Assembly: GCA_033816765.1 (NCBI GenBank)
Contig: CM066290.1
Coordinates: forward strand, 3,596,001-3,660,000
Source: Nothopassalora personata
Lineage: Eukaryota; Ascomycota; Dothideomycetes; Mycosphaerellales; Mycosphaerellaceae
Direction: 5' to 3'
DNA: 64,000 bases
Part shown: in pieces, positions 1,518-58,917 of the stretch
Layout of the letters: every line of letters starts with the position of its first letter
How positions within the stretch are numbered: the stretch's first letter is position 1
Made by a program: the position numbers and the translations under genes
Notes under the pieces: generated by a model
The model's database searches: none
What the model saw: the letters and a program-made list of their open reading frames with translations, nothing else
Told to the model about the DNA's origin: nothing

Positions 1518-1914
1518 ACTGCCTCCCCTTCTAGGACGAGCTACCCTTAGCTCGCGGCTTTAGGAGGTTTCTATATAAGTAATCTATCTACTTCTCGTAG
1601 ATTCCGTTACTATACGACCCGCCTACGGGTCTCGTACGTATCGTTATTAGGGTATAGGTAGGTATAAAGTTATAGTTACCGGGTTAACTAACTCGAGGGT
1701 TTAAGAAGCGTACCCTCTCCCTCCTTTTCCTTCTTTTCCCTTATACTATGTTCTCGTAGCGCACTATACCCGCACTACTAGCGATCTACTAGCTCCTTAC
1801 TAGCGACTATCTAGTAACCCGCTAGTACTACTATAGCTTTAGAGGAAGCTATCTAAGACTAGCTCCGCTAGGAGGCCCTTATAGGGGGCCTATTAGCACT
1901 ACTGACACTATTAC

Positions 1915-2111
1915 TATAAGGGGCAGCCTAGTAACTAACCCCTACATGTAGCCTTATATGTAACATGCGGTTGCAACCGGCTGCTAAGCCGTACGTAACA
2001 CGTATAAGTACACCTTACGACGCGCGATACGTCTTAAATAAAAGGTAAGAATTAGTTTATCTACGACTAGCAGGTCGTGGGCGTGCTATACATTACGACA
2101 TCCCCTTAACA
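1915..2111 (+). repeat. A 5' LTR
   Basis: The repeat is 197 bp. It begins TATAAGGGGC, from TG by RIP, while the 3' copy keeps TG. It ends CCCCTTAACA. The self-primer partner lies at 2047-2055. Confidence 0.92.
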
Positions 2112-3226: not shown

Positions 3227-3270
3227 CGGTTCGTAGGGTAGACGCTACGAAGGCTCTAACTAAGAAGGGC

Positions 3271-3468
3271 AGCGACTAGGGAAAAGGTAGAGGACTAGAA
3301 GTAGGTCGCTCCTAAGTCCGAGTTTTCCTAAGGTCGACCCCTTAAGGCGAGTAGATGTGTGTCTATCGTAGCGACTAGGGAAAAGGTAGAGGACTATAAG
3401 TAGGTCGCTCCTAAGTCCGAGTTTTCCTAAAGTCGACCCCTTAAGGCGAGTAGATACGTGTCTAGCGC
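3271..3468 (+). repeat. 99-bp tandem duplication in A, exactly 33 codons
   Basis: Unit 3271-3369 is followed at once by 3370-3468 with few differences. The length keeps the gag-pol frame. The corresponding region of B (about 47280-47340) has one copy, so the duplication is specific to A. Confidence 0.8.
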
Positions 3469-3469
3469 G

Positions 3470-6400
3470 TTACTTACGAGGCGCAGTCGAGACTCGTAAG
3501 GGCTTTCGCGAGGCTACGTTTCTCCTAGATGACTATACGGATCTTAGCCTAGTGTCGTATAAGTATATACTCCGACATTAAATGTAACCTATTAATAGGG
3601 TAAGGCTACCGAAGTTAGAGTCGTATACGCATAACCTAGGGTATTACTACGGCGCCTTTACGGTTCGGCTACGACTCGCTAATGACGCGGGAGTAGAGCG
3701 CGTAAGTGACGCTATCTACTACGCGGTGCCTATAGGTAGGCCATTAGTAATTTTAGGTAGACCCTAGCGGTATCGTAATCGGATAGTAAAGGCCGATAAG
3801 GATAACTAGTAGTACTACGGTATAGAGACGCCTACGGTTTAGTAGCGTAACGCACGCGAGTTCCTTAAGGATCTCGAGAGCTTAAAGCAGGTTTATACGA
3901 TAAGTGTTCGGGCTATTACTATAGCAGTACCTAAAGGAGAGGGCCCCTCGTAGCCTAAAGAATTTGTAGACTTCCGAGATATATACGTACCTAATAAGTA
4001 GGCGAAGCGCAAGATGCCCGACGGGGTTAAGTATACGATTAATCTCGTTAAAGGAAAGAAACCCCCTTTTAAGCCGCTATACTACTAGTCCTTAACTAAG
4101 TTAGAGGCCTTAAAGGAGTACCTTGCGTAAGTAATGGAGAAGGGGTGGATTAGGCGGTCCGTAAGCGAGGCGGGTGCGCCTATCCTGTTCGTGCTAAAGA
4201 AGAATAGTACTCTTAGGCTCTATGTTAATTATAGAGGCCTAAATAAGATTATAGTAAAGAACCGATACCCCCTGCCCCTAATTAGCGAGACGCTAGATAG
4301 GCTATTAGGTTCTAGGTTCTTTACTACAATCGATTTAAAGGACGCCTACTATCGTATCCCTATTAAGTAAGGCGATAAGTAGAAGACTGCGTTTCGCACG
4401 CGATACGGACACTACGAGTACCTAGTAATGCCGTTCGGGTTAACTAACGTACTAGTAACGTTTTAAGGGTATATTAATAAGGCGCTAACCGGCTTAGTTA
4501 ATAACATTTGCGTAGTCTACCTAGATGATATCCTTATCTATAGCGAGACGCGTAAGGCACACGTGCGAGCCGTACGCGCGGTACTAGAGAGGCTACGAAA
4601 GTTTACCCTATTCGTAAACCCTAAGAAGTGTCACTTCTTCTAGGAGAGTGTAGAGTTCCTTAGGTTTGTCGTAAGCGCCGTAGGCGTGTCGATAGATAGG
4701 AGTAGGGTAGCCGCTATCAAGGAATAGCCTACACCTACGACCTTTTATAAGGTCTAGTCCTTCCTTAGGTTTTACAACTTCTACCGGCGTTTTATAGAAG
4801 GATACTTAAGGGTCTATAAGCCCCTAACGGACCTGCTAAAGGGATCTAAGGACGGTAAGAAGCACGGCCCTCTTACGTAGACCTTAAGCGAAGAGTAGGC
4901 GTTTCGATAGCTTAAGGCCGGATTCTTAGGTGCACTAATACTTAGGCACTTCGATCCTACGCTACGCACGCGAGTCGAGACGGATGCCTTAGGTTTCGCG
5001 ATCGTAGGTATTATATCCCAATTGTTTAGTACTAAGTAGCATCCTATCGCGTTCTATTTACGTAAGATAATACTAGCTAAGTGTAACTTCGAGACGTACG
5101 ATTAGGAGCTACTTACAGTAGTTAAGGCTTTTAAGCATTAGAGGCTATACTTAGAGGGCGCTACGCATGCGGTACGAGTGCTAGTCGACTACGCTAACCT
5201 ATAGGGCTTTATAACAGTAAAGTAGCTAAATAGGCGGTAAGCTCGATAGGCTACGTTCCTACAGTCTTTTAATTTTATAGTAGAGCATCGGCCGGGTAAG
5301 ACTAACCTAGCCGACGCGCCTTCGAGACGTAGTAACTACGTAGCTATAACGTAATAAACTTCGAACTTACTACCTACCTTATAAAGTAAGCTATCTTTCT
5401 AGAAGGAGTCTCTAGAAGGGACAAGCGAGCCGACGGTAAAGCGCGTGCTTACTACCTACGAGGCGATGTAGGGCGACATAGGCGCGGCGATGGCAGTACG
5501 GAGAGGTGACCTTCCCTATTAAGATAAGCCGTCTTTACTAGTAGTAGTGTGCGCTATAGTAATATAGGGTTAAGCTTACAGCTCGACGGGTGAGTTAATC
5601 CTACTCTTAATGAAGATCGCGTAGTAGTAAGACGACTAGTGTATCGTATGCTCGGCGTAGGCGCTAAGCGCGAGGGACGCTAAGGGATAGCATGTAAAGG
5701 ATAACCTTGTATACTACGGAGACGCGATCGTAGTACCTAGGGATCACGTAATTAGGTCGCATCTAATTCGTATACACTACGACGACGTCCTCGCGGGTCA
5801 CTTTAGAAGAACTAAGACTAAAGAGCTGTTACGACGTAATTATTAGTAAGACTTACTTAGTACGGACGTGAAATAATACGTCTAAGCCTATAGAACCTAC
5901 TAGGGTTCGAAGGCGAGGCGCTATCGACCCTACGGCGAGCTACAACCGCTTCCTAGACCGGAGCGACCGTAGTAGGAAATTACTATAGATTTCATTACGG
6001 ACCTACCTCTAAGTACGCGAGCCGGTTACGTATATAATACGATCCTAGTAATAGTCGATCGCTACTTAAAAATGAGCTTATACATCCCGACGACGAAGAC
6101 TTGCATAGCCGTAGAGCTTACGAGGCTCCTACGAGACGAAGTCGTACGACACTATAGTGTCCCGTTAGGCATAGTAAGCGACCGAGGTCCGGTCTTTACT
6201 AGTTAGTTTTAGAGTAACTTCTACTTCGAGGCGCGTATAAAGCGTAAGCTATCTACGGCCTTTTACCCTTAGACTAACGGCTAAACTAAGAGGGTAAACT
6301 AAACCCTCGAACAATACCTTCGTTATTACTGTAGTAACAATTAAACTAAGTAGGCTAAGTAGCTTATAGTTGCTAAATTCGTAGCTAATAACAGCATCCA

Positions 6401-7035
6401 CCTAACACTACGGATGAGTCCGTTCGAAATAGCGTACGGTTAGCGACCTAAGATTGCCCCTATACTAACTAGATCTCGAGACGAGACCTAGGGGGGGAAG
6501 TACTAGTAGCGGTAATAGCTACGAGTCGCATACGAAAACTACGCGCTACACTCGAGGAGCGATAGAAGGCTATAGTAGAAAGCTAGGCTCGCTACTATAA
6601 TAAGACCCACTAAGCCAAGACCTACCGCGTAGGTAACTTAGTCCTATTATTAACGAAGAACCTTAAGTTAGTAGTACTAAAGAAGAAGATAGGTCCGAAG
6701 TTTATCGGCCTATACCGTATTACGGACGCTGTCGGTTCGTAGGCGTACCGCCTAGCGCTACTAGCCGACTTAAGGCTCTATAACGTCTTCTATATCTCTC
6801 TCCTCGAGCCGTATATCGGTAGCGATAAGGATGGACCCGTACCCCCTCTAGCTAATGAGGACGGAGAGTATAAGGTAGAGGTAGTACTAGATAGGCGTAA
6901 GCGTAAGGGTAAGCTACAGTATCTAGTCCAGTAGAAGGACTAGCTAGAGGAGTATAATAGCTAGGAACCGGCGGAGGGCCTCGCGAATGCGGATCGTATA
7001 GTAGCCGACTATAAGGCGTTAAGGAGAAGCAAATA
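3470..7035 (+). pseudogene. A pol (PR-RT-RH-IN-chromodomain), RIP-broken
   Basis: Domains in order: protease (DDYTDLSLVSYKY, where a DxG active site is expected, ~3530); RT at 4134-4900 with an uninterrupted stretch 4134-4370 ([32 protein letters not shown]) then YLDDILIYS at ~4530; RNase H with VETDALGFAI and LNRR; integrase with FITDLPL, VSDRGPVFTS and a TNG block; chromodomain at ~6850-7020 (VEVVLDRRKRKGKLQYLVQ). Stops fall at Gln/Trp. The gene ends tail to tail with the antisense gene. Confidence 0.88.
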
Positions 7036-7115: not shown

Positions 7116-8108
7116 CTACGTAGAGTAGTAGTAGGCGAGGAGCCCGCGAGTAGCGTATAAGGCGAGCGCCTCAGTTGTCGTTACGTAGTAACTTAGGTAA
7201 GAATGCCTAGTCGGCGGCGGTAGTGTCGATTCTCTACGCCTATAGAAACTAGGACTACGGTTAGTAGGGTACACGTAGGCAAGGAACATACGACCCACGG
7301 CGCGGCCGAGTTCGAATAGCCTATTAAGGGCGCGGTTCTACTCCTACTAGAGCGCGAGGGCTTCGGCGGCGGGGGCGGCGGTAGTAGTAGCGGCGGCGGC
7401 GGAGGCACGTATACGGGTCTCCCCGGTACGCTTATGCTTATAGGCATTAAACTGCCTAATGGCCTATAGGAAGGGTTAGCCGAAGCATAGGGGACGCACT
7501 AGAGCACTCCCCCGCGAGTAGTAGTCGACTCGCACGAGCGAAGTAGCGACTTACCTCCTTAATGTCGTTACCTAGCTAGGCACATAGGCGGATCTACTCT
7601 ACTAGCTCCTACTACTAGAGGTCTATAGGCGCCTAGCCTATTATAGCCGTAAGGAAGTCGCGCTAGGACCGCGCGGCGCGTAGGCGGCTTACTAGCGAGG
7701 CGATGGCGTAGCTAGTATTAGGCACGTAGCTATATTTACTACGCCTATAGCGGCTACACTTCTTTAGGAGCTCGCCGGTAGTAACACTATTACAGTTATT
7801 GGCCTCGTCTAGTAAGTGGTTAGCATACGAATTGTAGGCGACACGCGTAGAGACTTACCCCTAACGAAGTACGGGAGGCACCGTATATACATGTTAATTC
7901 TCTACGAGAGCTTAGTAGCTAGCGAGGGCGTTAGTAGCTACGAGGGTAATACTAGTCGCTTGCGACTACTAGGCGTTCTAGGGGCGTCGCGTACTAGAGC
8001 CGCCTAGCGGCGCTCGTCTTCTACGGCGCTAGTAGTGCTATCGCTACTAGTGCTACTAGAGGAGGCGGAGCGGCTAGAGAATGGCAGCGAGGAGGGCACG
8101 GTAGACAT
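7116..8108 (-). pseudogene. A antisense gene: at least three exons with consensus introns
   Basis: A plausible ATG at 8108 opens a Ser-rich exon 1 (8108-7859, MSTVPSSLPFSSRS...). Intron 1 (7858-7809, 50 nt) has GTAAGT, a GCTAAC branch site and TAG. Exon 2 (7808-7555) is 254 nt and reads CNSVTTGELLKK and IASLVSRLRAARS. Intron 2 (7554-7464) has GTAAGT, GGCTAAC and TAG. Exon 3 (7463-7116) contains RQFNAYKHKR and NRALNRLFELGRAVGR. The copy in B has the same phases and exon 2 length, with many third-position differences. The product is an unrecognised helical, basic protein of about 280 residues. A few TAG stops are RIP damage. Confidence 0.75.
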
Positions 8109-8394
8109 AATAATAATAATAATACTAGCGAGGCGCTTACGATAATAGTGCGGTACGGGTGCGTAGTAGTAGTGTAGCGAAGGTAATAAGCTAGGGAGCG
8201 TACTAAGAAAGGGCTAGGTTAGGCTAGAGTTTTATACCCCTAATTAGCTACGTCGGTATAGTAACTAAGCCTTACTTACCTACACCTACATAACGACACG
8301 CACGTAACCCGCATATAGGCCGTATAGTAACTATAGTTCTAGAAGTACATAGGAGCCTCTACGTAGTAACTAGCGAGCTAAGGACAGCTCGTAC

Positions 8395-8405
8395 GGGAGG
8401 GGAGG
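8395..8405 (+). other. A polypurine tract
   Basis: GGGAGGGGAGG lies 4 nt before the 3' LTR, the expected plus-strand primer site of an LTR element. Confidence 0.75.
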
Positions 8406-8409
8406 CAAT

Positions 8410-8606
8410 TGTAAGGGGCAGCCTAGTAGCTAACCCCTATATATAGCCTTATATATAACATACGGTCGCGACCGGCTACTAAGCCGCACGTAACACGCAT
8501 AAGTACACCTTACGACGCGCGATGCCTCTTAAATAAAAGGCAAGAATTAGTTCATCTACGACTAGTAGGTCGTAGGCGTACTATATATTACGACATCCCC
8601 TTAACA
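8410..8606 (+). repeat. A 3' LTR
   Basis: The repeat is 197 bp with TG...CA ends, followed by TSD ATTAC at 8607-8611. It is less RIPped at its first dinucleotide than the 5' copy. Confidence 0.93.
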
Positions 8607-8628
8607 ATTACTAGTACTACTAGTATAG

Positions 8629-9505
8629 ATGTCTAGCGCGCTCGGCGTACTAGATACGCTAGCGAAGCGTAAGTTTAGCGTACTAGGGCCGTAGACCCCT
8701 AAGTCCTTACTAGCTAGGCGCCTAGGTATAGACATTAAGATGTGTATACGTTATCTCCCGTACTTCGTAGCTAGTAAGTATTCGCTACGCTCTTCGCTTA
8801 CGATACGCTTACTAATAGTATAGTAGACGAGTAGGATACGTGTAATAGTATTACTACCGGCGAGTTACTTAAGAAGTATAGGCGCTATAGAGACATTAGG
8901 TACCCCTACGTTAGTAATACTAGCGTCGCTATCGCGTAGCTAGTAGCTCGCCTACGCGCCGCTCGCGCCTAGCGCGATAAGCTTATCTAGGGGCTTAGTA
9001 ACCCTATTACTAAGTAAGAGTAGGATGCTCTAGACTAGTAGTACGAGGTCTACGCCTAGCTAGGCGAGTAGATCTTAGAGGTAAGTACTACGCCTCGCTA
9101 GCGCTCCCTACGCTCGCCGTATACGGCGTACTATCGCTCCCTATATAAATCGGCTAACCTCCTCCTAGGCTAAGAGGCAGTTTAGTACCTATAAGAATAA
9201 GCGTATAGGCTATACCCGCGTACGCTTCGCCGGCGCCTCTACTACTACTACCCCCTCCTCCGCCGCCGCTACTACGTCCGTAGTTCTATAGTAGGAGTAG
9301 AATAGGGCCCTTAATAGGCTCTTCGAGCTCGGCCGTACGGTAAGTAACATACGTATCGTATACGTGTCCTATACTAACCGTAGTTATAGTTCCTATAGGC
9401 TAGAAACATCGATACTACTACGGCTAATAGGGCCTTCTTACTACTAGCCCTACGGGGCGAGTATAATAAGGAGGATAATAAGAAGGATAATAACGAGTAA
9501 TCGCG
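8629..9505 (+). pseudogene. B antisense gene, same family as in A
   Basis: It runs opposite to B gag-pol. ATG 8629; exon 1 8629-8773 (MSSALGVLDTLAKRKF..., 145 nt, phase 1); intron 1 8774-8826 with GTAAGT, TACTAAT (RIPped TACTAAC) and TAG; exon 2 8827-9080, 254 nt, reading TTGELLKKYRRYR; intron 2 9081-9168 with GTAAGT, CGGCTAAC and CCTAG; exon 3 from 9169 with RQFSTYKNKR and NRALNRLFELGR. A possible third intron at 9340-9383 has GTAAGT, TACTAAC and TAG. Differences from the A copy are largely synonymous in these frames. The 3' end is approximate. Element A landed 18 nt upstream of the ATG. Confidence 0.75.
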
Positions 9506-13856: not shown

Positions 13857-14039
13857 TGTCACGGGCAGCCCGCGACCCTTCACTGACGATGCGTCGTCCC
13901 GGGTGAACCTCGGACCTTCTGCATCGGGACTAGCGGCTTGGCGTTAGCTTAAGTACCCGCCGCGCCTCGCGCTCCTCTTTCATAGCTTCGTAGAACAACA
14001 ACTATCTCATTCGGACCCTTTGGTACGCGCGCCCTTACA
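13857..14039 (+). repeat. D 5' LTR
   Basis: The repeat is 183 bp, TGTCACGGGC to GCCCTTACA. GTAGAACAA at 13990-13998 complements the site just after the LTR, so under a self-priming model the RNA would begin near 13990. Confidence 0.95.
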
Positions 14040-14041
14040 GT

Positions 14042-14050
14042 TTGTTCTAC
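14042..14050 (+). other. D primer-binding site, self-primer type
   Basis: TTGTTCTAC, 2 nt after the 5' LTR, is the exact complement of 13990-13998. No tRNA 3'-end complement is apparent. Confidence 0.65.
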
Positions 14051-14183
14051 CACCCTACCCAGATCACGGATCTAGGTAAGGGACGCGTAACACTCAGAAC
14101 AGACAACAGAACGCGCACGGCGCAATAGCAGAGTCGCGCCGAGTCGCACTCGACACAGAACACGGCAAGGCGCAAAGGCGCAG

Positions 14184-16262
14184 ATGCCTAGAGAAACTAA
14201 CGCAGCAAAGACCTCGACAGGTCGCGTTGACACCGACAACATGTCCCAGGACACACAGGCACAGAACGGCATGCCGCCACCGGCAAAGCCACTAGGCAAG
14301 CGTACACGCACCTCTCTTTTCCCCGATCTTTCCTCTTTCCCTCAGAGTCAGACTCAAGGAGACGACACCCGGCGAGTCACAGTAGACACCGGTGCCGCGC
14401 TTCAGCAAGAGTTGGACGAGGCTTACGAAGAGGCATCGGACAGCGAGGCAAAGGGAAAGGTTGACTTCACAGATCTCTTCGAACCGAAAGTCCTCCAAGA
14501 GGAGGGCCAAGAACATACGGTCTTCACATCGCTCGACGTACCCGAACACATCGCCGCTGCCGACTTCACAGATGTCGAGCTAGACGACCTCGTCGAGTTG
14601 GTCAAGGACCACCCGAAGACCCTCTATGACTTCATCCTACGTGGATTCAACACAGCAGTGATGAAGGGTAAGCAGCTCAGTGTACTCGAGCGCGCGAACG
14701 CACATCAGAATAGCCAGTACCGCACCCTGTACGCCGAATACGACCGCATTCATGGAATGCTGCAGACCGAGAAGGCCGCTTTGAGCAAGATGGCCCGAGA
14801 CCTCAAGGACAAGAACGCCGACTCTACTAAGGCGCAGGAGCTTCGGAAGAAGTATGATGCTGCGAACGACCTATGCAAGAAGTTCGCCGACATCACGAAT
14901 CAAGAGAAGAAGAAGGCTCGAACAGCCGAGAACAAGAACAAGACACTACAAGACGAGATCACCCAGTTGAAGACTCGCCTGCAGGCAGCAGAGGACAACA
15001 ACAATGCCCGCTGCTCACGCTCTCGAGGCCGCACCCATTCGCGACCACGCTCACACCGCTCCCAATCACGCCCTGTCCTACGTGAGACTTCCCTTGAAGC
15101 TCTCCAGCGTCAGTATCGTGAGGCAGTGGGCGGCGGCGGTGGAGGTGGGGACGATGGCGATGATGACGACGACTCGGGTGACAAGGACAATGACCGAGGA
15201 CGCAACAACCGACCACTGCCGCGTCGCAACGAGCGTCAAGAATCACACCGCACTGCTAGAGGCCGCAGCAACCGCACACAGACACCACTGGTCGACCTGC
15301 CAGAGCGCCTCCTCAACATCGACGACTTGCTGGATCGCAATATGAAGATCGGCAAGGGCGTGCCAGACCCACGCAAGTTCAAGAACGACGAAGAGCCCAC
15401 CTACGACAGTTGGTACACCAGTATCCTACTAAAACTGACAGTGGCGACCTTTCGCACCGAGCAGGATGGCCTGCGCTTCTTGTATGGCTGGACTGATGGA
15501 GAAGTTCAGAAGACCATTAAGCCGCGCATTCCCATCCCCGGACATCTGGCCTACAACGAGTTCAAGACTGGCGAAGAACTGTTGGACTGGATGACTCGAC
15601 AGTATGGCGCTCGTAATGAGGCCACCAAGGCTGCAGTGGACATTACGAGCTGCAAGCAGCAACAGAAGGAGACGTTTGTCGCATTCCACGCCCGCTACTC
15701 GAAGCTGCGAGCGTGGATGGACTGGAGCGATGAGACGGAGCTTATGTTGTTTCGAACCCGTCTAAATCGCAAGTACTATGTCAAGACCTTCGGCGACCGT
15801 GAAGTGGATCGCCGCCTACACAGCATGCTGGACGTCATCGAGGAGTGCACCGCATTGGACGAGAGCTTCTACGAGACTGAGCAGCTGTACCCTCAAGAGA
15901 GCCGTCCACGTGGCAATGGAGGCAACCAGAACCCCGGCAACCAGACCCAGGGCGACACTGCTGCTGCCGCCGCTGCTGGGGCTGCTGGCGCTGTCGTGCA
16001 GCGTCCACCACAGTACGCCGGCACCAAGAAGAAGGAAGACTTGCCAGCCTACCTTCAGAACCTTACACCGCTCAACCGTGAGGGCCGTGAGGAACTGAAG
16101 AAACAGGGCAAGTGCTTCCGCTGCCGCACTGGACTGCACGTGTCAAGCAACACCGAGTGCCCCATGTACGGCTACGACGGCGATTACCGCCCACCGCGTC
16201 CACGCAAGGACCCGAACCTCAGCTCCCTCGGCGCTGAGGGAAATGGCGAGACCGCTGCCTAA
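14184..16262 (+). CDS. gag: D Gag polyprotein
   Basis: A 692-residue structural protein that would package element RNA. The acidic N-terminal part is followed by a Lys/Glu-rich probable coiled coil (about residues 195-275), an Arg/Ser-rich basic patch and polyglycine/Asp run (~278-335), a Ty3 gag core (about 390-580, including WYTSILLKLTVATF and LYGWTDGEVQKTI), an Ala-rich linker, and one zinc knuckle near residues 644-660 (CFRCRTGLHVSSNTEC, with unusual spacing). The first ATG after the LTR is 14184. The last codons contain the frameshift heptamer at 16238. It is uninterrupted and un-RIPped. Confidence 0.93.
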   Translation: MPRETNAAKTSTGRVDTDNMSQDTQAQNGMPPPAKPLGKRTRTSLFPDLSSFPQSQTQGDDTRRVTVDTGAALQQELDEAYEEASDSEAKGKVDFTDLFEPKVLQEEGQEHTVFTSLDVPEHIAAADFTDVELDDLVELVKDHPKTLYDFILRGFNTAVMKGKQLSVLERANAHQNSQYRTLYAEYDRIHGMLQTEKAALSKMARDLKDKNADSTKAQELRKKYDAANDLCKKFADITNQEKKKARTAENKNKTLQDEITQLKTRLQAAEDNNNARCSRSRGRTHSRPRSHRSQSRPVLRETSLEALQRQYREAVGGGGGGGDDGDDDDDSGDKDNDRGRNNRPLPRRNERQESHRTARGRSNRTQTPLVDLPERLLNIDDLLDRNMKIGKGVPDPRKFKNDEEPTYDSWYTSILLKLTVATFRTEQDGLRFLYGWTDGEVQKTIKPRIPIPGHLAYNEFKTGEELLDWMTRQYGARNEATKAAVDITSCKQQQKETFVAFHARYSKLRAWMDWSDETELMLFRTRLNRKYYVKTFGDREVDRRLHSMLDVIEECTALDESFYETEQLYPQESRPRGNGGNQNPGNQTQGDTAAAAAAGAAGAVVQRPPQYAGTKKKEDLPAYLQNLTPLNREGREELKKQGKCFRCRTGLHVSSNTECPMYGYDGDYRPPRPRKDPNLSSLGAEGNGETAA

Positions 16263-16271
16263 GCGTGGCAG
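16238..16271 (+). promoter_or_regulatory. -1 ribosomal frameshift signal between D gag and pol
   Basis: GGGAAAT at 16238-16244 is in gag phase G_GGA_AAT, the X_XXY_YYZ form. The -1 frame has a stop at 16235-16237, so it opens exactly at the heptamer and runs into pol. Ten nt later CTGCC (16255-16259) and GGCAG (16267-16271) can form a hairpin whose loop holds the gag stop. Known retroviral and retrotransposon shifts use this layout; use here is inferred. Confidence 0.72.
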
Positions 16272-19200
16272 ACAGTGGTCAACCGAACATCCAAGGACAG
16301 AAAGAGCATGAGATTGAGAGACACAGAGTGCAAGAGATGGACTATGAGGAGGGGGAACTGAAGATATCAGCCTGCGCGCTAGAGCCGCAGCAGCCAGATG
16401 TACACCCTCACATAGTCCTGCCAGTAAGGATACAACATGAAAAGGCAAGAGGCCTTGTAGACTCTGCTTCCACCTCTCTCTTTCTGGATTGGAAGTTCAC
16501 ACGCAAACATATAATACCCTTATCCCCTCTGGTAAAAAGCAAGAACCTGACCCTGGGCAATGGCAAGTCTAGCGGCCGACGTATCACCCATGCAGCCCTG
16601 GTTGATGTCGACATCAAGGGTCACCGCGAGCAGATGCTATGTTACGTCACCGACCTTGAATACGACGTCGTCCTTGGCCTGCCATGGTTGAGTGCTCACA
16701 ACCCCGACATCTTCTGGGAGACCGGCGAAGTGGCTTTCAGATCGGACTACTGCTTTGGTCACTGTCTTCATAACAAGACGTCGACAACCGTACAGTCACT
16801 GAACCACCAACACCGTGCTCGCAAGGACACAACGAAATACGGACCGGAGCCCTTCACTAGTGAGTCAGGGGGATTCACAGCAGGAGGGGCAGAATTGAAC
16901 GTGTCATCCATGGACCTGGATGATGACGGAGAGGTTGAGTGCATTGAAGTCACGCAACGAGCCTGGGAGATGTACGCGCACCGGCCTGGGGCCAAGTGCT
17001 TCTACGTCCTGCCCACGGGTGAGGAGTGTGACGAGAATGGCAACCTAAAGCTGAGCGCAATGGCAGCTGATGACCTGGATCAGTTTCTGAACAAGGAGTT
17101 CAACCATAACCCGAAGGAAAAGCTGCCACCAGAATATCATCATCTGGCAGACACCTTCTCGGCAAAGGACCATGATGTGCTGCCACCGCACAGACCCGGC
17201 ATCGACCATGAGATTCACATCAAGCCAGATGGCCCGCAGGAGCCGCCATATCGCAAACCCTATGGTCTCGCTCCGCAAGAAAACGAGGCCGTCAAGAAAT
17301 GGATCACTGAGCAAGAAGGACCTGGCAAGATCAGACCAGCAGGGCAGAAGACAAGTCAATCCCCAGCACCTGTGCTTGTGGTGCGCAAGCCAGGCGGAGG
17401 ACTGCGAGTGTGCATCGACTACCGCGGGTTGAATGCAATCACTATCAAGAACAGATACCCGATACCGTTGATTCAGGAGACGCTAAACCGCATGCACGGC
17501 AAGAAGTACTTCACGAAGCTGGATATCGTCGCAGCCTTCAACAAGCTTCGCATTGCAGAAGGGCACGAATGGCTTACAGCATTCGCTACACGGTATGGCG
17601 TGTACGAATGCCTCGTGCTGCCATTTGGCCTTTGCAATGGTCCCGCATCTTTTCAGTCTTACATCAACAAGGTGCTGCAAGAACATCTAGACGACTTTGT
17701 GTCAGCCTACCTCGACGATGTGCTAATCTTTAGCGATACGCTCGAAGAGCACATCGAGCACGTGAAGAAGGTGCTCACGAAGCTGCGCGACGCTGGGCTT
17801 ACAGTGGACATTGACAAGTGTGAATTCCACCAGCAGCGGGTGAAGTACCTTGGCCTAATCATCACGCCTGAGGGCACTGAGATGGACCTAGAAAAGCTCG
17901 AGTGCATTCAGACCTGGGAAGCGCCTTCCAACCTGAAGGACGTACAAGCTTTCTTGGGATTCGCCAACTTTTATAGGAGATTCATCGAGGCATTCTCGAG
18001 GTTGGCGGCACCGCTGACAGATCTGACCAAATCAAATGGGCCAAGTAACCACAAGAACCGCAAGGTCAACTGGACACCAGAGTGTCAGCGGGCATTTGAT
18101 GCACTAAAGGCGGCATTTAGCAAAGCTGGGATGCTTGCGCACTACGTGCCAGGGCGACAGACGGTTGTCGAAACGGACTCCTCCGACTTCGTCAACGCAG
18201 GCGTGTTGTCGCAATACGATGAGAACGGAGTACTGCATCCTGTCGCGTTCTACTCGAAGAAGCTAAGCCCGCAAGAGTGCAATTACGAAATCTATGACAA
18301 GGAGCTTTTGGCAATCATTAAGGCTTTTGAGGAATGGCGGCCAGAGCTGGCCTGTGAGGGTGACGATGACACTATTGAACCAGTCAAGGTGTTCACTGAT
18401 CACAAGAACCTCGAGTACTTCATGACCACGAAGCAGCTAAACAGGCGCCAAGCGCGCTGGGCTGAATTCCTGTCACAGTTCAACTTTCGAATCATATATC
18501 GACCAGGTGTCCAGGGAACGAAACCTGACAGCCTCACGAGACGCAGCCAGGACCTTCCGCAGGGGGTGGACGATCCGCGTAATCAGCATCAGCACCAGAC
18601 GTTGCTGCCGCCTGAGCGATTCCTTAAGATCGACTCGATGCGCGCAACTATAGAGGACGTAGCTGAGGAGACTACACCACTGAACCTAGAAGCCACAGAG
18701 TTCACACGAACAGCAGCCACTGCTGCCGAGCCGCAGGCGGAGTCGGTCCAGGACGCAATACGAGAAGCCGAACTCGAATACCGCATGACAACAGCCTATG
18801 CCGTGGATACAGAGTTGAATGCAGCAATCAAGACACTGCAGAAGGGGGATGCCATCCCTACACTGCTTCAGAAGGCTAAGGTGCACCCAGTGCACTGCAA
18901 AGTAGAAGGTGATCTACTGTACGTACGCAATCAGTATGGTGGATGGAGCCTGTGGGTGCCGGATGATCGAACACTGCGCACTCGCATTATCCGAATGAAC
19001 CATGACCCGCCAGCCGCAGGACACCCAGGCAGAGCACGCACCTACGAGCTCGTGGCACGTGAATTCTACTGGCCTGGCTTGGCACGGTCAGTGCGCAGGT
19101 ACACCGGCAATTGCCGGCCTTGTCGCACGACGAAATCTCTGCACACCCAGCCACCGGGTTTGCTGCACCCACTTTCGGTACCAGAAAGACCATGGCAACA

Positions 19201-21073
19201 CATCGCAGTAGACTTCGTAGTCGACCTGCCACCGAGCGAACTCGACGGCATGATCTACACTAACATCATGACTGTCACAGACAGGCTCACGAAGGAAGTG
19301 GAACTGATACCTATTGGCGCTATGACAGCGCAGAACGCTGCAAGGTTGTTCCTCAAGCACGTCTTTTGCCGACACGGCTTCCCTGACACTATCACTTCAG
19401 ATCGCGGCAAGCAGTTCATAGCCACCTTCTGGAAACGCCTGTGCAAGATGCTCCGCACAGAGAGGAAGCTGAGTTCTTCCTATCACCCCCAGACCGATGG
19501 GCAGTCAGAACGTACTAACCAGGCAATGGAGCAGTACCTACGAGCCTTCATCAATGAGTCGCAGAGTGACTGGGCAGAATGGCTCCCCCTGGCCCAATTT
19601 GCAATGAACAACCACGTGTCAGAGACTACGGGTGTGTCACCATTCTACGCCAACCTAGGCTACAACCCCGAGTTCACCGAGCGCATTGATCTGCAAGCCG
19701 GTAAAGACCGTAACCTCACGACTATCCAGCGACTCGACAGCAAATCAGCTGAGGCGTTCGCCCGACGGATCTGTGAGCTGCATCGCAACCTTCAAGAGAA
19801 CATGCGAATGTCACAAGCACTTCAAGCGGAAGCAGCAAACAGGCACCGCAGCATCTCGCCAGACTACAAGGTTGGCGACTGGGTGTATCTGAGCACGAAG
19901 AACATCCGCACGACACGACCGTCGAAGAAGCTCGACCGCAAGTACGCCGGCCCATACCAGATCACGGAGGTTATGCCGGCGAAGCTATCATATAAGCTGA
20001 ACCTGTCTGATGCCCTTGCAGGACTAGACAATTGCTTTCACACGTCACTACTTCAGCGCGCTGACAGCCCCGATCTCCTACCGCTCGAGGGACAACGGCT
20101 GGCGCCACCCCCAGCCATCACGATTGAACCAGACACGAGAGAAGCCGAAGCTGCAGCAGACGTTACCGCACCAACACTCGAATACGAGGTGGACAAGATC
20201 TTAGACATGTACACCCGCAAGAGGGCTGGCAAGGTGAAGAAAGGAAAGAAGCGCAACGTGGACACTTGGTACAAGGTGCGCTGGACAGGATATCAGGATA
20301 TGGAAGATGGAGAAACCTGGCAACCAGCTGAGGACTTGCTTGTGAAAGCAGCCGCCGCTCTTGCAGACTTCCACCATAACCGGCCGGAGTTATCCACACC
20401 TGCAGGCTTTGCAGCTCCATCCGACTGGTCCCCACCAGACAATGAGGTGCTCGGACTCAACACGATCAGGGTCAAGCAAGACACCGTCACGATTGAGCCA
20501 GCCGGAGCCTTGCCTCTGATGGAATCGGGTCAGCGCATGTTCACCACGCACCGCTGCACTGACCAGGTTACGAGACAGCCCGTCGTCACAACTGAGGTCA
20601 CCGGCGCCAGCCGTCCTCAGCTCTGCGATAGCACAGGCAGTTGTACCGATGCTTTAGTAAGACCTGCAGAGCCTGCAATGATACCCAACCTTAGTCACAA
20701 GGATCAGACGCGAGTGTCCGCCGAAGACAGACTTAGGTCTAGGTCGGGCCAGCTAGCCAAGCAATGCGAGTCTAAAGCAGACACCGCAGCGAAAGAGATG
20801 TGCGACGCGGAGATTGCAGTGAAGGAGATGGACGACGATCTGGAGGATGACTGGACGTTTGCACGGTTATGGAGCTCGACAGGCAAAGGTGACAAGTGGC
20901 CACACAAGACGGAGCAAGTGAATAAACGAATGAAGGAGCGACACGCTCAGAGGACTGAGGCGACTTTTGAGAGGGGGGGTACTGTCACGGGCAGCCCGCG
21001 ACCCTTCACTGACGATGCGTCGTCCCGGGTGAACCTCGGACCTTCTGCATCGGGACTAGCGGCTTGGCGTTAG
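16238..21073 (+). CDS. pol: D Pol: protease, RT, RNase H, integrase, chromodomain
   Basis: Open to 21073, ending inside the 3' LTR. No ATG lies at the frame opening (16265 is GTG), so expression is probably by -1 shift at 16238. Residues counted from 16265: protease motif DSA at 66-68, where DSG/DTG is usual; RT with YRGLNAITIKNRYPIPLI and YLDD at ~482; RNase H with ETDSSDF and TDHKNL; integrase zinc region around 905-950; catalytic D/D/E in VDFVVDLPP (~983), TSDRGKQF (~1046) and SERTNQ (~1081); chromodomain ~1308-1372 (YKVRWTGYQDMEDGETWQPA). About 200 further residues have no recognised domain. Confidence 0.93.
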   Translation, partial: GKWRDRCLSVADSGQPNIQGQKEHEIERHRVQEMDYEEGELKISACALEPQQPDVHPHIVLPVRIQHEKARGLVDSASTSLFLDWKFTRKHIIPLSPLVKSKNLTLGNGKSSGRRITHAALVDVDIKGHREQMLCYVTDLEYDVVLGLPWLSAHNPDIFWETGEVAFRSDYCFGHCLHNKTSTTVQSLNHQHRARKDTTKYGPEPFTSESGGFTAGGAELNVSSMDLDDDGEVECIEVTQRAWEMYAHRPGAKCFYVLPTGEECDENGNLKLSAMAADDLDQFLNKEFNHNPKEKLPPEYHHLADTFSAKDHDVLPPHRPGIDHEIHIKPDGPQEPPYRKPYGLAPQENEAVKKWITEQEGPGKIRPAGQKTSQSPAPVLVVRKPGGGLRVCIDYRGLNAITIKNRYPIPLIQETLNRMHGKKYFTKLDIVAAFNKLRIAEGHEWLTAFATRYGVYECLVLPFGLCNGPASFQSYINKVLQEHLDDFVSAYLDDVLIFSDTLEEHIEHVKKVLTKLRDAGLTVDIDKCEFHQQRVKYLGLIITPEGTEMDLEKLECIQTWEAPSNLKDVQAFLGFANFYRRFIEAFSRLAAPLTDLTKSNGPSNHKNRKVNWTPECQRAFDALKAAFSKAGMLAHYVPGRQTVVETDSSDFVNAGVLSQYDENGVLHPVAFYSKKLSPQECNYEIYDKELLAIIKAFEEWRPELACEGDDDTIEPVKVFTDHKNLEYFMTTKQLNRRQARWAEFLSQFNFRIIYRPGVQGTKPDSLTRRSQDLPQGVDDPRNQHQHQTLLPPERFLKIDSMRATIEDVAEETTPLNLEATEFTRTAATAAEPQAESVQDAIREAELEYRMTTAYAVDTELNAAIKTLQKGDAIPTLLQKAKVHPVHCKVEGDLLYVRNQYGGWSLWVPDDRTLRTRIIRMNHDPPAAGHPGRARTYELVAREFYWPGLARSVRRYTGNCRPCRTTKSLHTQPPGLLHPLSVPERPWQHIAVDFVVDLPPSELDGMIYTNIMTVTDRLTKEVELIPIGAMTAQNAARLFLKHVFCRHGFPDTITSDRGKQFIATFWKRLCKMLRTERKLSSSYHPQTDGQSERTNQAMEQYLRAFINESQSDWAEWLPLAQFAMNNHVSETTGVSPFYANLGYNPEFTERIDLQAGKDRNLTTIQRLDSKSAEAFARRICELHRNLQENMRMSQALQAEAANRHRSISPDYKVGDWVYLSTKNIRTTRPSKKLDRKYAGPYQITEVMPAKLSYKLNLSDALAGLDNCFHTSLLQRADSPDLLPLEGQRLAPPPAITIEPDTREAEAAADVTAPTLEYEVDKILDMYTRKRAGKVKKGKKRNVDTWYKVRWTGYQDMEDGETWQPAEDLLVKAAAALADFHHNRPELSTPAGFAAPSDWSPPDNEVLGLNTIRVKQDTVTIEPAGALPLMESGQRMFTTHRCTDQVTRQPVVTTEVTGASRPQLCDSTGSCTDALVRPAEPAMIPNLSHKDQTRVSAEDRLRSRSGQLAKQCESKADTAAKEMCDAEIAVKEMDDDLEDDWTFARLWSSTGKGDKWPHKTEQVNKRMKERHAQRTEATFERGGTVTGSPRPFTDDASSRVNLGPSASGLAAWR
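20969..20979 (+). other. D polypurine tract
   Basis: A purine run with seven G lies just before the 3' LTR. It also codes for pol residues, because pol continues into the LTR. Confidence 0.8.
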
Positions 21074-21165
21074 CTTAAGTACCCGCCGCGCCTCGCGCTC
21101 CTCTTTCATAGCTTCGTAGAACAACAACTATCTCATTCGGACCCTTTGGTACGCGCGCCCTTACA
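20983..21165 (+). repeat. D 3' LTR
   Basis: Identical by eye to 13857-14039 over 183 bp. It contains the last 91 nt of pol. Confidence 0.95.
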
Positions 21166-28967: not shown

Positions 28968-29214
28968 TGTTAAGTTAAGACCTAATAGAATACGTAGTTA
29001 GTAGCGGAGTGGAGTAAAAGATTAATCTTCAACTAGCTAATAGCTACAGGGCATGTAGCAATATATTAGGAACCAATGTGTTAATTGTGTTAGATGTCTA
29101 TCTAAGCTAAAGGGGAGAGAAGGTGTCTTCCGACAAGCTGAGTTATCGTGGATGCCTTAGGCTATTAGATCATAACCTAACTGTTAGCTCCCCTTAAGAT
29201 GCTATATCTTAACA
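28968..29214 (-). repeat. G 3' LTR
   Basis: The repeat is 247 bp. The pyrimidine run at 29215-29228 is the complement of the expected polypurine tract. Confidence 0.9.
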
Positions 29215-29229
29215 CTCCTACTTATCTCA

Positions 29230-32200
29230 CATAGGAGGTTATAGTCTACTCTTCTCCTATTAGTAGTATTTAGACCTCTATAATAGGTTAAGCTAGCTTA
29301 CAAACCTCTAGAAGTGTGGAGTAGTCTTTAGCTTTATAAACCTATCTATAACTATCTTAGATGTTAGGGTGTACTTAATAGTAATAAGCCTTCTCTACTA
29401 AAGTTTCCTAATAGCATTGTAGGTAATGTTAATGTGCTTTAACTTATTATAAACATGTGCATCCCTTACTAGGGTAAGGGCAGCTTAGTTGTTACCTCTC
29501 AATTAGACTAGTCTTAAGCTTAATATAGTCTCCTAGTTTCTAGTGATCCTTAGTTAATAGGAACAGTCTCCTACTAACTCTAGACAGTCTATCTCCCTTA
29601 GCAGTAAAGCTAGGAATTGGGATTGCTTTATATATGCATTTATAGCTATGTATTTAGCTTCTATTGTAGATGTTGCTATAGACTTTTGCTTCTTACTTAT
29701 CTAGGAGACTAGTGCTCTATAGAGGAAGAAGACATACCTAAGGATAGAGACTCTATCTGCTTTGTCTATTACATAATTAGAGTTATAGTATCTAACTAGG
29801 CATCCTTCTCTATACCTAGAGAAGACAAGGCTAAGATTAGGATATAACCTTAGATATCTTATAATCTTTAAAGCCTTTATATAGTAGGCGGATAGGTCAC
29901 TTATAAATGAGCTTATCCTTCCTAGGGCAAAAGCAATGTCTAGCCTTGTAATTGTTGCTAGCTACATCTATGTACTATTGATACTTTAGTACTCTACCTT
30001 GTTACACCTCTTATCTATGTGGCTTAAAGGTTTAAGAGCCTTATAGCTGTCTATAGGTAAGTGTATAGGTGCTGCCTTCTTATAGTTTATCCCTATCTTA
30101 GCAAGGTTGTCCCTAACAAAGTGTCCCTAGTTAAGTTTTAGGATTCATCTCCTCCTGTCCCTTGTAACTCTTATGCTAAGGATCTTTTTAGGTTTACTAA
30201 GATCTTTAATCTTAAAGACTTTACTAAGTTCTCTTTTGAACTAGAGAACATCTGTCAACTTTAGTATAGCAATTAGAATGTTATCTACATATGTAAGAAT
30301 CATAATCTCTTTTTCCTTGTAAATAAGTAGGTATAGATCTACCTCTAACTATGTGAATCTAATCTCTCTAAGCTTTAATACATAGAGTTGATTCTAATCT
30401 CTAGCTGCTTGCTTAAGTCTATATAAGCTTTTAAGGATCTTAAACACTATGTTTAGTAGAAGCTTAACTCCTAATAGTAGTAACATAAAGATGTCTTTAT
30501 AGAGGGTGCTTTCTATAAACGTATTGTTCACATCTACTTAGTAAAGATGGAGATCCTTCTTACACACAATAGCTATAAACACCCTAAGGGTGTTATGTCT
30601 AACTATAGGCGCAAATGTCTCTATAAAGTTAATACTAAACTTCTATAAAAAGCGCCTTATAACTAGCCTAGCCTTAAACTTTTTAATAGCTCTACTAATG
30701 CTTCTTTTAACATTAAAGACCTATCTTAACGTAACTAAGTTTGCTCCTTTTAGTAGAACAGTATTCTCCTAGGTGTTGTTGCTCTATAGAGCATCTAGCT
30801 CCTTCTAGATTGCTTCCTTCTAAAGGTGTCCCTATTTCTTGTTATTTATAGCATCCTTATAGGACTTTGGAATTAGGATCTCTTACTTGTATGCAATAAC
30901 TTCTATAGTTGCTATAAAGGCTATCTCCTTAACTTCTTCTAGGAATTTACTATCCTATAGTACTAAATTATCCACTAATTGTATAGCTGTAAAGAAAGCT
31001 TAGTAGTAAGTAGCAAGGTTCTCTAAGAGGTCTATTGCTTCTCCTACTTTAGTAGCTAGTTTAGGTATAGGGACTATAGATCTTAGGGCTTTCTGTTTCT
31101 ATTTATAGCCCTTAACATTATAGTTAGCCCTCCTCTTACTAAGGGATGATCTAAGAGTAGTCACTTATGTCCTAGTGACATTCTTTTCCTAGAGATCTAG
31201 TAAACTTATCTTAATTGGCTCATCGATTTTCTGAAATTCCCCTACATTCTTTAGAGGCTGGGGAAGTTATATAAACAGCTTTCTTAGCTAGGCTGTTACT
31301 AGGCTACTCTGCTAAATGATTAAATAGTGAACAGGTTGCTCTAAGGATATGTCCTTCCTTAGCCTCCCTAAGGGTCTCCTAGCTGGTGCATTGCTTAATA
31401 GATTCAATTTTGTAACATTGAGATCTATATTACCTCTAGGTTAGTCCTTAAAGAAGTCTATATATATGTGTTGTTTAATAGCTTTTATGTCTAGTTCCTA
31501 AAAGAGCTAGGCCTTAGCTATGTTTTAACGTATCTAACAAACACTGCTTCTTTACCTCTATTTATTAGTTGATTACTTCTTACCTATTAAGGCTAGGATC
31601 TTGTGTCTATATAGATAATAGCTTTGCATCCCTAAACCTTTAAATGGTTAATAGTTGGCTTAATACCATTAAAGGCTTTATCTAGTGAAACCTTAAACCT
31701 ATTATAGTCTAGACTATTTAGTAGTTTGTTCCTTATGTAGGTTTGGGCTTCTAGTGCTTTAGGCTAGAATTCAATTAGCATCTTAGCCTCTTTAAGTATT
31801 GCCCTTATAGAGTCTTCTAAGGTTTGTATTAACCTTTTAACTAGTTTATTTTAGAGCGAGTTATATGCCTTAGTATGCTCTAGCCCAATTCCTAAATCCT
31901 TCTCCTACTGCTTAACTAATATAATAAGTTCCCTTGTATTATTAAGCCTAACTGCTTTTAACTATGCTAATGATTTCCTCTCTGCCTTAATCTTCTAGTT
32001 CTAGAGAGCAACTAGAGCATCTTCTCTTTTCTTAAGAGGACAGGTCTACTTTTTTCTAGAGAAGTTGTTAATAATCTTAAGCTAGTATTTGAACCCTAGC
32101 CTTAATGTTAGTAGTAGACTACATATATCAATAGATATAAGGGCAAGTCTTTTAGGTCTTCTCTTAGTAACTTTACCTTTGTACTTCTTTATCTTTACTA

Positions 32201-33890
32201 TTGAACATACTCTATACTAGTAGAAGCTATCCCTAGGAATAGGAATAGGTTCTTTTAAGTCTATTACCTTATAAAGATTCTAGAGCAAGTTCTTCCTAAA
32301 GTGTACAAATCTTCTATACTAAAGCTCCTACTGTTTTAGGTTAGTCTCTAATTTAGTAGTTACAAAGGCATTCTCTATTAGTGGTGTATATAATAAGTGA
32401 TATGCCCTTTCTTATAGTAGAGGAGAAATCTTATTAATGAATGGAACCCCCCTAAGGAGCCTTGTCTAGACAACAGTTTAGCTAGAGGGGGATATAAGAG
32501 AAAATAAAGGAGGTTAGACACTAAACTGCTTACTAAACTAGTTCTAAGAAACTAGGTTCACCCCTAGCTTAGGTATAAGTAGAACATCTTCTAAAACAAC
32601 TTTCCTACTAGATCTCCTACTTATCTCTACAGTCCTAATATAAGTAGCTAACAAATGCCTACCTCCTACTTTGATCTATTTCTTCTTTATTAAGGGAGTT
32701 ATAGATCTAAAGAGGCAGTTCTAGTTAGTTATATAGGATAAAGCATAAGAATTAAGTAACTACTCTAATAAGGGGAACTTGCCTTGGACTTCTGCAGTTA
32801 AGTGAGCTACTTTATTATACTTATTATTATTAGACATTGTCTTCTAGGATAAGTTGTATAAGTTAGGTAGCTCTTAGGTAGAGAAACCTTTCCTAGTCTT
32901 CCTTGTTTTAGAGGAAGGAGACTAGGCCTAGTTCTTCTAGAGTAATAGTATATTAGAGCTAAGTTTCTTTACCATTTTCTTAAGTTCCTCTATAGAGGAC
33001 TTCTCTCTTAGTATTCTTCTTAAAGATAGTAGTAGAGATCTTCTCTTCTTAATATATGTTGCATTCTAGGAGGATAGTGCTTAGGAATGAGATCTAAGGA
33101 CCTTCTTTGCCTTAGAGAGACTAGGGCAGTCCTTAATAAGATGGTCCTTCTTATAGAGAAGGCAGGAAAGTAATCTTACCTAACCTAAGGGCCTAACCTA
33201 GGTGGCTACTATACTATACTTAGCCTTAGAGGGATTTCATCTAGCCTCTTAAGCCTTAAGGATCTTTAAGGTCCTTTTATGATCTATCTTTGGCTAAGCT
33301 ATAATAGTATCCCTGGCTATATAGTAGTTAGGTAGCAGTGAGCTTAAAAGCTAGGTTATTCTTACATTAGCTTTCCTATAGTGCTGGCCCTCTAGGTTAA
33401 CATTAGCAATCCTCCTTCTAAGAGATACTAGGTGTGCCTATATAGATCTAATAGTGAACTCTTTACTTATCTTAAAGTTTATAAACTGTTTTGTAAGCTT
33501 ATGTATATAGGTTAGTAACACCTAGCTATACTTGTTCTAGAGATGCACCTATATCTTAGTAGCTTTTCTAGATTCGTAAGAGCCCTTAAGCTTAAATTCA
33601 TCTTCTTCTATAATCCTACTTAGGATACTAAAGTAGCAAGCTACATTTTGTTTTATCTATGTTAGTGCATTAAGAATCTCTTTAATCTTAGTCTCTTCCT
33701 AGAGTTTTAGGTTCTTGCCCTTAATATTGTTAAATGACACTTCTAATAGGTTATCAATTGTAAAGAATGCTAACTAGCTCTCTATCTTGTATCTCTAAAG
33801 GTTGAACTATCTCTTCTAATTGTCTCTCCTAAGAATTGGGATTTTGGTTCCCTTCTCTTCTCCTTTCTCTTAGTATAAATCTATAATAAA
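29230..33890 (-). pseudogene. G gag-pol (copia order), broken
   Basis: Read on the minus strand: a zinc-knuckle-like segment at about 33185-33140 (CLLYKKDHLIKDC, second Cys lost) marks gag. The middle (about 32600-31400) is where integrase is expected and is too decayed to place motifs. RT shows YVDNILI near 30285, from YVDDILI by a G to A change. RNase H near 29780-29620 reads DKADRVSILRYVFFLYRALVS, a stop for W, then ISKKQKSIATSTIEAKYIA. These are diagnostic copia motifs. Frame is broken by many TAG/TAA. Confidence 0.85.
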
Positions 33891-34314
33891 TTAAATATAA
33901 TAAAACAAGGTGTATATACTTTAAAGTCGTAGCTTAGGTCCTACTAAGGCTTTTAGTGTAGAATAGTAAGGTTCGTAGGTGTAGATACTAAGGCCTACTT
34001 AGTAGGGTAAAGAAAGAGCGGTGTAGTCTCGGTGCTAGGACATAGGTCTGTCTCTCCTAGCAGAGTCTAAATAACTTACTTGAAGTCCTTCTTAATAGTA
34101 TCTCGATGCAGTTCTGCCTATAGAGTGTCTTTAAGGTATTAGCTTATAGTAAGCCGCATAGAGTCCTTTTCTAGATTACCTATTACTTAGTATTAAACCA
34201 AGCTCCTTAATAGGACAGATGGGGTAGACTTCTACTTCCTAGATGTTTTCTGCTATAATAGTAAGGGATATAAGTAACCTATACTAATATAGGTTGCTCT
34301 TACTCCTGTATAAA

Positions 34315-49997: not shown

Positions 49998-50449
49998 ACC
50001 TAGAATCTACTCGCTAATATTAGCGTAGAGGCGGCGTTACTTATTAAGAGTATCTTAATTCTCCTAGGAGGGAGGATTACTAAGCTCGCGGATAAGTTTA
50101 TTGTACTTAGCGCGCGCGGTATATAGGTAAGCTACTAGCTACGTAATAGCGACGCTAGTATTACTTACGTATAGATACCTACTAATCCTATAGCGCCTAT
50201 ACTTCTTAAGTAGCTTACCGGTAGTAATACTATTATACGTATCTAGCTTATCTATTATACGGTTAGTAAGCGTATCGTAAGCGGCGAGCGTAGTAAATAC
50301 TTACTACGTATAAAGTATAGGAGGTAGCGGAGGTAAATCTTAACATCTATACCTAGACGCTTAGCTAGTAATAATTTTAGGGTCTACGGCCCTAGTACGC
50401 TAAACTTACGCTTTATAGGAGTATTAGGTACGCCTAGCGTGCTACTTAT
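49998..50449 (-). pseudogene. E antisense gene fragment
   Basis: The start codon at 50449 is ATA (ATG RIPped). Exon 1 is 50449-50305 (145 nt, as in B). Intron 1 is 50304-50252 with GTAAGT, a perfect TACTAAC and TAG. Exon 2 from 50251 reads YNSITTGKLLKKYRRYR and runs to the fragment end. It is the third copy showing the same intron. Confidence 0.7.
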
Positions 50450-50858: not shown

Positions 50859-51050
50859 TATATAGGTAGCCTATAGCTAACCCTTATATGTAATATACGA
50901 CGATACCCGGCTTAGTAAGCCGTACGTAACGCGTATATATACACTAAGCGACACGTATAGCGTCTATAGAAGAAGGTAAGCTTTAGTTTATCTACGATTA
51001 GAAGATCGTAGGCGCGCTATACATTACGACATTCCCTTATAGTCCTTATA
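50859..51050 (+). repeat. E 3' LTR
   Basis: B-family LTR with RIP changes; its right end is eroded. Confidence 0.75.
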
Positions 51051-58900: not shown

Positions 58901-58902
58901 CT

Positions 58903-58910: not shown

Positions 58911-58917
58911 CCTCAGG

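Follow-up and report, generated by a model that had tools for sequence, protein, structure and literature searches.

A gene with three predicted introns lies antisense to gag-pol, between pol and the 3′ LTR, in a family of Ty3 elements of Nothopassalora personata; it is conserved and under codon-level constraint in its spliced frame, and in un-RIPed copies its product carries a six-cysteine motif. The gene was noticed in a window of 64,000 nucleotides (assembly GCA_033816765.1, contig CM066290.1, positions 3,596,001 to 3,660,000), to which the coordinates below refer except where a copy is named. The observation made in the original prediction is confirmed, in a stronger form than first stated, and its interpretation, that the product might silence, regulate or target its own element, is partly supported.

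Structure of the antisense gene

As had been claimed, the gene runs against gag-pol between pol and the 3′ LTR in element A (minus strand, 8108-7171), in element B (plus strand, 8629-9500) and, as a fragment, in element E (minus strand, 50449-49998). Its parts are given here together with those of L057, an un-RIPed copy, where it serves as reference.

7859..8108, minus strand: A exon 1, 250 nt, with ATG at 8108-8106; the layout matches un-RIPed L057
7809..7858, minus strand: A intron 1, 50 nt, GTAAGT...GCTAACC...TAG, phase 1
7555..7808, minus strand: A exon 2, 254 nt
7464..7554, minus strand: A intron 2, 91 nt, phase 0
7299..7463, minus strand: A exon 3, 165 nt
7240..7298, minus strand: A intron 3, 59 nt, GTGGGT...CTACTAACC...ATAG, phase 0, with an un-RIPed counterpart in L057
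7171..7239, minus strand: A exon 4 to the stop codon TGA; exon 4 is 69 nt in un-RIPed L057
8629..8773, plus strand: B exon 1, 145 nt
8774..8826, plus strand: B intron 1, 53 nt
8827..9080, plus strand: B exon 2, 254 nt
9081..9168, plus strand: B intron 2, 88 nt, phase 0
9169..9339, plus strand: B exon 3, 171 nt
9340..9398, plus strand: B intron 3, 59 nt, GTAAGT...TACTAACC...ATAG, phase 0
9399..9500, plus strand: B exon 4 to the stop codon TAA
50449-50305, minus strand: E fragment exon 1, start codon reading ATA
50304-50252, minus strand: E fragment intron 1, 53 nt
50251-49998, minus strand: E fragment exon 2, 254 nt; similarity stops past exon 2
8230..8236, minus strand: TATA-like box (TATAAAA) found by eye, about 120 nt before the antisense ATG and outside the LTR

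Several details of the original prediction hold at the level of single nucleotides: intron 1 measures 50, 53 and 53 nt in A, B and E, in phase 1 and with GTAAGT...CTAAY...TAG in all three; exon 2 has 254 nt in A and B, and likewise in E and in 41 of the 43 copies aligned below; and intron 2 occupies a position common to A and B (91 and 88 nt, phase 0). The two introns noted are there, and a third had been overlooked (A 7298-7240, B 9340-9398), the phases being 1, 0 and 0. The end given for the A gene, 7116, overshoots the stop codon, which is found at 7173-7171. The splice signals are read on the antisense strand, as proposed; their reverse complements start with CT and end with AC in the sense direction, so that a sense RNA would retain the introns.

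The copies in the window cannot be taken for working genes, as they had been, since they are RIP-dead: in exons 1-3 the frame of A is interrupted by 13 TAG codons and that of B by 13 TAG and one TAA. The six cysteine codons fall in exon 2 and at the end of exon 1 of A, where they are partly RIPed to tyrosine. The TATA-like box, which reads CATAAAAC in the un-RIPed copy L056, may act as a promoter situated between the gene and the 3′ LTR.

The carrier element

Element A retains the following features besides the antisense gene.

3270..7033, plus strand: remnants of A pol, with matches to L056 in RT, RNase H, integrase and SH3/chromodomain; pol and the antisense gene converge
1915..2111, plus strand: A 5′ LTR, 197 bp
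8410..8606, plus strand: A 3′ LTR, 197 bp
8395-8405: purine tract directly before the A 3′ LTR
1910..1914 and 8607-8611: target site duplication ATTAC, left and right copies flanking element A

Element A is nested in element B, 22 nt before the antisense ATG of the latter. The un-RIPed element L056 has identical 197-bp LTRs and a 5-bp target site duplication, ATAAG, and Pfam recognizes in its pol the pieces RVT_1, RNase H, integrase, Tf2-1 SH3 and Chromo (PF00385, E=1.2e-16). RT, RNase H, integrase and a chromodomain at the C-terminus, the hallmarks of a Ty3 chromovirus, are all present. This pol is split over two frames, the chromodomain part standing apart from the main pol ORF. Both in A and in L056 the gene has the placement of an aORF-3R, between pol and the 3′ LTR and antisense to gag-pol, and as in that class it occurs in many copies, counted as a minimum, and is conserved like the other proteins of the element. 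At the gag-pol end of L056, positions 6079-6870 consist of about eight tandem units of 99 bp (33 codons).

The expected linkage to Ty3 pol holds for most copies. All eight A loci (L001-L008) and 24 of the 36 loci L020-L055 have a chromodomain-end piece of pol behind the gene and antiparallel to it, at a greater distance in four of these 24 (L028, L036, L037 and L038); at the remaining 12 of the 36, none was found within 3.5 kb.

RIP and the un-RIPed copies

The repeats of the window are strongly RIPed, the observed/expected ratios in the stretches tested being 0.08-0.44 for CA and 1.4-2.5 for TA; the interval 50000-54000 is mixed (CA at 0.61 of expectation). A separate pattern is seen at 29000-34000, where CpG observed/expected is 0.10, whereas CpG is kept at 1.1-1.6 and CpA lost in the remaining RIPed stretches tested; another mutation context or an older process are suggested as explanations.

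The genome searched comprises 54.5 Mb in 40 contigs, and, with 40 or 150 candidates scored per search, the copy counts of the family are minimum values. By tblastn with the product of A exons 2-4, written with X at the stops, at least 24 places are free of stops among the 150 candidates scored. In the DNA search, 27 of the 40 scored candidates show 99-100% identity to L056 in the part that matched, and 21 of these 27 cover the full query.

Three un-RIPed copies were read directly. L056 is a short form with an open frame of 209 aa; L057 is a long form, open over 245 aa and with introns of 50/91/59 nt; and L058 is a long form whose exon 2, of 253 nt, breaks the frame. The short form is without 167 nt that comprise the end of exon 3, intron 3 and the start of exon 4, and retains the C-terminus; the gap is in frame and flanked by short GCCGAC repeats. 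Among the 27 un-RIPed places, 23 have the short form and two the long form, and two end before that region. The RIPed copy L059 is of the short form too.

Window A and L057 align without gaps over 993 columns and differ at 129 of them, 115 of these differences being CpA>TpA or TpG>TpA. By this substitution pattern, the A gene is readily recognized as a RIPed copy of a gene of the L057 type.

The genome contains a near-identical un-RIPed burst (at least 27 places) beside many RIPed relatives; either the burst moved after the last sexual cycle or RIP is now weak. The same contrast, together with the stop-free places (at least 24, with 150 candidates scored), could be read as the mark of a host-directed product, an anti-silencing or chromatin factor that would shield the element from heterochromatin, RNAi or RIP. 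We consider this improbable: the RIPed copies had the same gene and were killed nevertheless, and insertion after the last sexual cycle would explain the un-RIPed state equally well.

Splice signals across copies

The alignment comprises 43 rows: the B copy of the window, three of the eight A loci (L001, L003, L005), two of three further B loci (L015 being left out), E (L016), and the 36 loci L020-L055, which were chosen from 46 matches. Loss or displacement of the introns in other copies had been named beforehand as a finding that would tell against the gene; the layout is alike across the 43 rows. With truncated rows scored as misses, intron 1 starts with GT in 42 of 43 and ends with AG in 43 of 43. 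Intron 2 starts with GT in 16 and with AT in 25 rows and ends with AG in 41, and the corresponding counts for intron 3 are 14, 24 and 32 of 43. Furthermore, CTAAY is found within the last 35 nt of introns 1, 2 and 3 in 41, 39 and 38 of the 43 rows, respectively. The AT donors of introns 2 and 3 would be the expected RIP product of TGTAAGT.

On the internal branches of the tree described below, introns vary less than third codon positions (24 changes per 200 sites vs 79 per 213, in L020-L055).

Selection on the spliced antisense frame

Since RIP makes transitions, purine/pyrimidine (R/Y) changes were counted, by parsimony on a tree and over 213 sites per codon position. The tree holds 32 of the 43 rows; the three A rows, L016 and the truncated L023, L036, L039, L040, L047, L051 and L054 were left out. 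Purifying selection in the spliced antisense frame, whose absence had likewise been named as contrary evidence, is apparent on the internal branches, where 46/22/79 changes fall at codon positions 1/2/3 (p=5.5e-8; 32 of 43 rows). The differences between A and B favour third positions as well, in agreement with what had been noted: their transversions number 42/30/65 at positions 1/2/3 (p=0.00095). On terminal branches the bias is present but weaker (64/44/80, p=0.006), which does not fit copies that die at once by RIP.

The order 2<1<3 is found in each of the four exons, and when 27 relative registers are ranked, the spliced one comes first and the unspliced one tenth. In exon 2, the antisense frame outscores the other five frames by BLOSUM in 112 of 114 pairs of an A copy with another copy.

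The pieces of pol used as controls were placed by tblastn instead of by a fixed offset, by which only 8, 8 and 3 copies had been aligned in the three pol rows, none of them giving a significant result. The sense integrase piece, as positive control, shows 66/55/112 changes (p=7.7e-6; 21 copies), and the position bias of the antisense gene is comparable to it. A second pol control, the chromodomain end, is weak (45/54/70, p=0.058; 26 copies). The spacer before the gene, as negative control, shows no bias (23/32/21, p=0.26; 25 of 31 copies).

A frame that is only apparent, produced by RIP-biased composition or by an overlapping sense gene, had to be weighed against these counts. RIP raises the frequency of TA and gives alignments a similar look, and L056 does have two sense ORFs, of 178 and 101 aa, across exons 1-2. 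Nevertheless, R/Y coding is blind to RIP, the introns run CT...AC in the sense direction, and the frames of the un-RIPed L056 and L057 are open. Moreover, position 1 exceeds position 2 (46 vs 22 changes, p=0.005), which speaks against a sense frame sharing the third positions of the antisense one: positions 1 and 2 fit the antisense frame, the opposite of what a sense frame would lead one to expect (the sharing of third positions was worked out by hand from ORF coordinates). Taking together the A-B transversions, the R/Y counts, the register ranking and the un-RIPed frames, we reject both an artefact of RIP and a sense overlap; such a reading is extremely improbable.

It might also be conceived that the antisense RNA itself functions, as dsRNA or by interference, and that the frame is incidental; antisense RNAs of retroelements have been discussed as regulators (PMC7264820, accessible text). 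The codon-position constraint in the spliced register, the conserved splice sites and the cysteine columns described below all point to translation, and this reading is disfavoured, being in our judgement very improbable.

The product and its six-cysteine motif

In both the L056 and the L057 products, the cysteines are arranged as C-x2-C-x11-C-x11-C-x2-C-x6-C, with the positions C74xxC77-x11-C89-x11-C101xxC104-x6-C111. Across the 43 rows, these six positions hold cysteine or tyrosine in 42, 43, 42, 42, 43 and 41 rows, respectively, the pattern expected of dead copies, in which RIP changes TGY (Cys) to TAY (Tyr). In the 40 rows of the B, E and F types, cysteine is still present at 74, 77, 89 and 101, and positions 104 and 111 have only the TAY form, apart from a single AAC and a single TAG at 111; there, cysteines at 104 and 111 are suggested by the A-type copies. 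At position 159, the three A rows have a seventh Cys where 39 of the 40 others have TAY; His109 is CAY or TAY in 43 of 43.

The product had been described as unrecognised. It remains without a database match, but the un-RIPed copies reveal the motif, which escaped notice in the window because RIP had replaced cysteines by tyrosines. To judge from its sequence, the motif likely folds as a zinc cluster and binds zinc and DNA.

The nearest comparison is the fungal Zn2Cys6 cluster (PF00172), which also has six cysteines, usually spaced CxxCx6C - linker - CxxCx6-9C. The second half of the motif, CGRCRRSKHSC, fits CxxCRxxKxxC, which we take to be one half of the fungal zinc cluster; the first half, CxxC-x11-C, and the linker, x11, do not fit. 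Membership in PF00172 was rejected, since both the profile and the first-half spacing fail: the Pfam search of the product gave no family over threshold, with PF00172 not among the matches up to E=10, and the PF00172 profile run against the genome itself gave 149 matches, none at the un-RIPed copies. Pfam matches to Rpn3_C (E=0.046) and UL92 (0.21; 0.092 for a piece) were taken as noise.

Neither PDB nor NCBIfam holds a match to the product. A protein set rich in fungi gave no homologue in a search that requires shared 5-residue words; as the search works by such words, and as repeat genes are often masked before annotation, this does not imply absence in nature. The fungal breadth of the set is illustrated by the host gene at 53921-57211 of the window, which retrieves 653 proteins at E<=1e-20, the best match listed being from Fulvia fulva (83% over 94% of the query), with Dothistroma septosporum at 77% over 66%. 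The viral and prokaryote collections gave 9 and 83 pattern matches, without a relative. Rfam had no match over L056 1200-2700, and a bacterial promoter/terminator scan, a method ill-suited to a fungus, gave nothing either.

A possible role in regulating the element

As a tentative proposal, which we rate as coming close to, but staying short of, probable, and which resembles HBZ in layout, the antisense gene with its three predicted introns would encode a nuclear zinc-cluster DNA-binding protein that tunes the sense transcription of its own element. The antisense transcript would start at its own promoter between the gene and the LTR, and the mRNA would be spliced at the three predicted introns. 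The Ser/Pro-rich N-terminus with GGRKRP would then mediate nuclear entry, C-x2-C-x11-C-x11-C-x2-C-x6-C would bind zinc and nucleic acid, and the stretch past the cysteine motif could allow self-association; binding to the LTR or spacer would adjust sense transcription and copy number. Retrotransposition would leave the introns in place, since they are present in the sense genomic RNA as reverse complements, which cannot be spliced out.

A different role would place the product after transcription, as a zinc-binding nucleic-acid chaperone or as a helper of import or integration in the particle or pre-integration complex. Roles in nuclear entry have been proposed for such genes (PMC7264820, accessible text). 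The product is indeed a small protein with a cysteine motif, carrying 33 basic and 27 acidic residues, and the element encodes a zinc-binding domain in its integrase already. However, the half motif CxxCRxxKxxC is presumably typical of DNA-binding clusters, and a product made from its own antisense transcript would be more readily seen as a regulator than as a stoichiometric part of the particle, so that we hold a post-transcriptional role to be unlikely, though worth keeping in view.

Returning to regulation of sense transcription, a more far-reaching possibility, of which we are rather doubtful, is that this lineage evolved its own zinc-cluster transcription factor, encoded antisense. This would be the fungal equivalent of HBZ, with a new fold, and would bind the LTR or spacer and balance sense (transposition) against antisense (restraint), a shortened version being present in the current un-RIPed burst.

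Precedents and significance

The architecture has precedents at the same place in Boty brtn and in the plant aORF-3R genes (PMC7264820, PMC8365987 and PMC4227169, each in its accessible text), and reports of antisense accessory genes in LTR elements, with no function known, go back a long time (PMC7264820, accessible text). The brtn gene of the Boty-like retrotransposons of Botrytis cinerea (Zhao et al. 2011, as cited; accessible portions of PMC8365987, PMC7264820 and PMC4227169) likewise belongs to a fungal Ty3 element and lies antisense in the interval from pol to the 3′ LTR (PMC7264820); Boty-like elements carry gag-pol with a CHROMO domain as well as brtn, and have 5-bp target site duplications (PMC4227169). 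BRTN is also named in Monilinia (PMC5987419, accessible text). Compared by description only, the gene studied here shares with brtn the antisense orientation, the placement between pol and the 3′ LTR, the chromodomain Ty3 carrier and the 5-bp duplication.

Among plants, Grande gene23, RIRE2, Retand and PvRetro13 are antisense between pol and the 3′ LTR, and the product of Grande is located in the nucleus, its gene having a promoter of its own upstream (PMC7264820, accessible text). The likeness, again by description only, is that of the antisense placement; the hosts are plants, and the accessible text of PMC7264820 does not describe a six-cysteine motif for these genes. HBZ of HTLV-1 is an antisense-encoded transcription factor that represses the sense transcription of its own element (PMC3185765, accessible text). 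It resembles the fungal gene by analogy only, in the layout of an antisense gene: HBZ belongs to the bZIP proteins and is transcribed from a start in the 3′ LTR, whereas the fungal product has a cysteine motif, with no Pfam bZIP, and its TATA-like box lies outside the LTR.

A multi-intron antisense gene with a cysteine motif in a fungal element was not found in the literature searched, outside which most subscription papers lie; the main text of the C. fulvum paper (PMC10823647) contains neither ‘antisense’ nor ‘Boty’. The family offers a testable handle on antisense accessory genes, as it combines open un-RIPed frames, a six-cysteine motif suggestive of zinc and DNA binding, and a size large enough for selection to be measured. 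It also exposes a trap in the annotation of fungal repeats, namely that RIP can mask a zinc protein by turning cysteine into tyrosine.

Other elements in the window

Two further un-RIPed sequences were observed in the window. At 13857-21165 stands a young LTR element with 183-bp end repeats that are 100% identical and with ORFs of 692 and 1602 aa; its second ORF enters the right-hand repeat, which leaves no room for an antisense gene. At 58855-60924, a Gag-like ORF of 689 aa contains a CCHC-like knuckle (CYACGKEGHMARDC).
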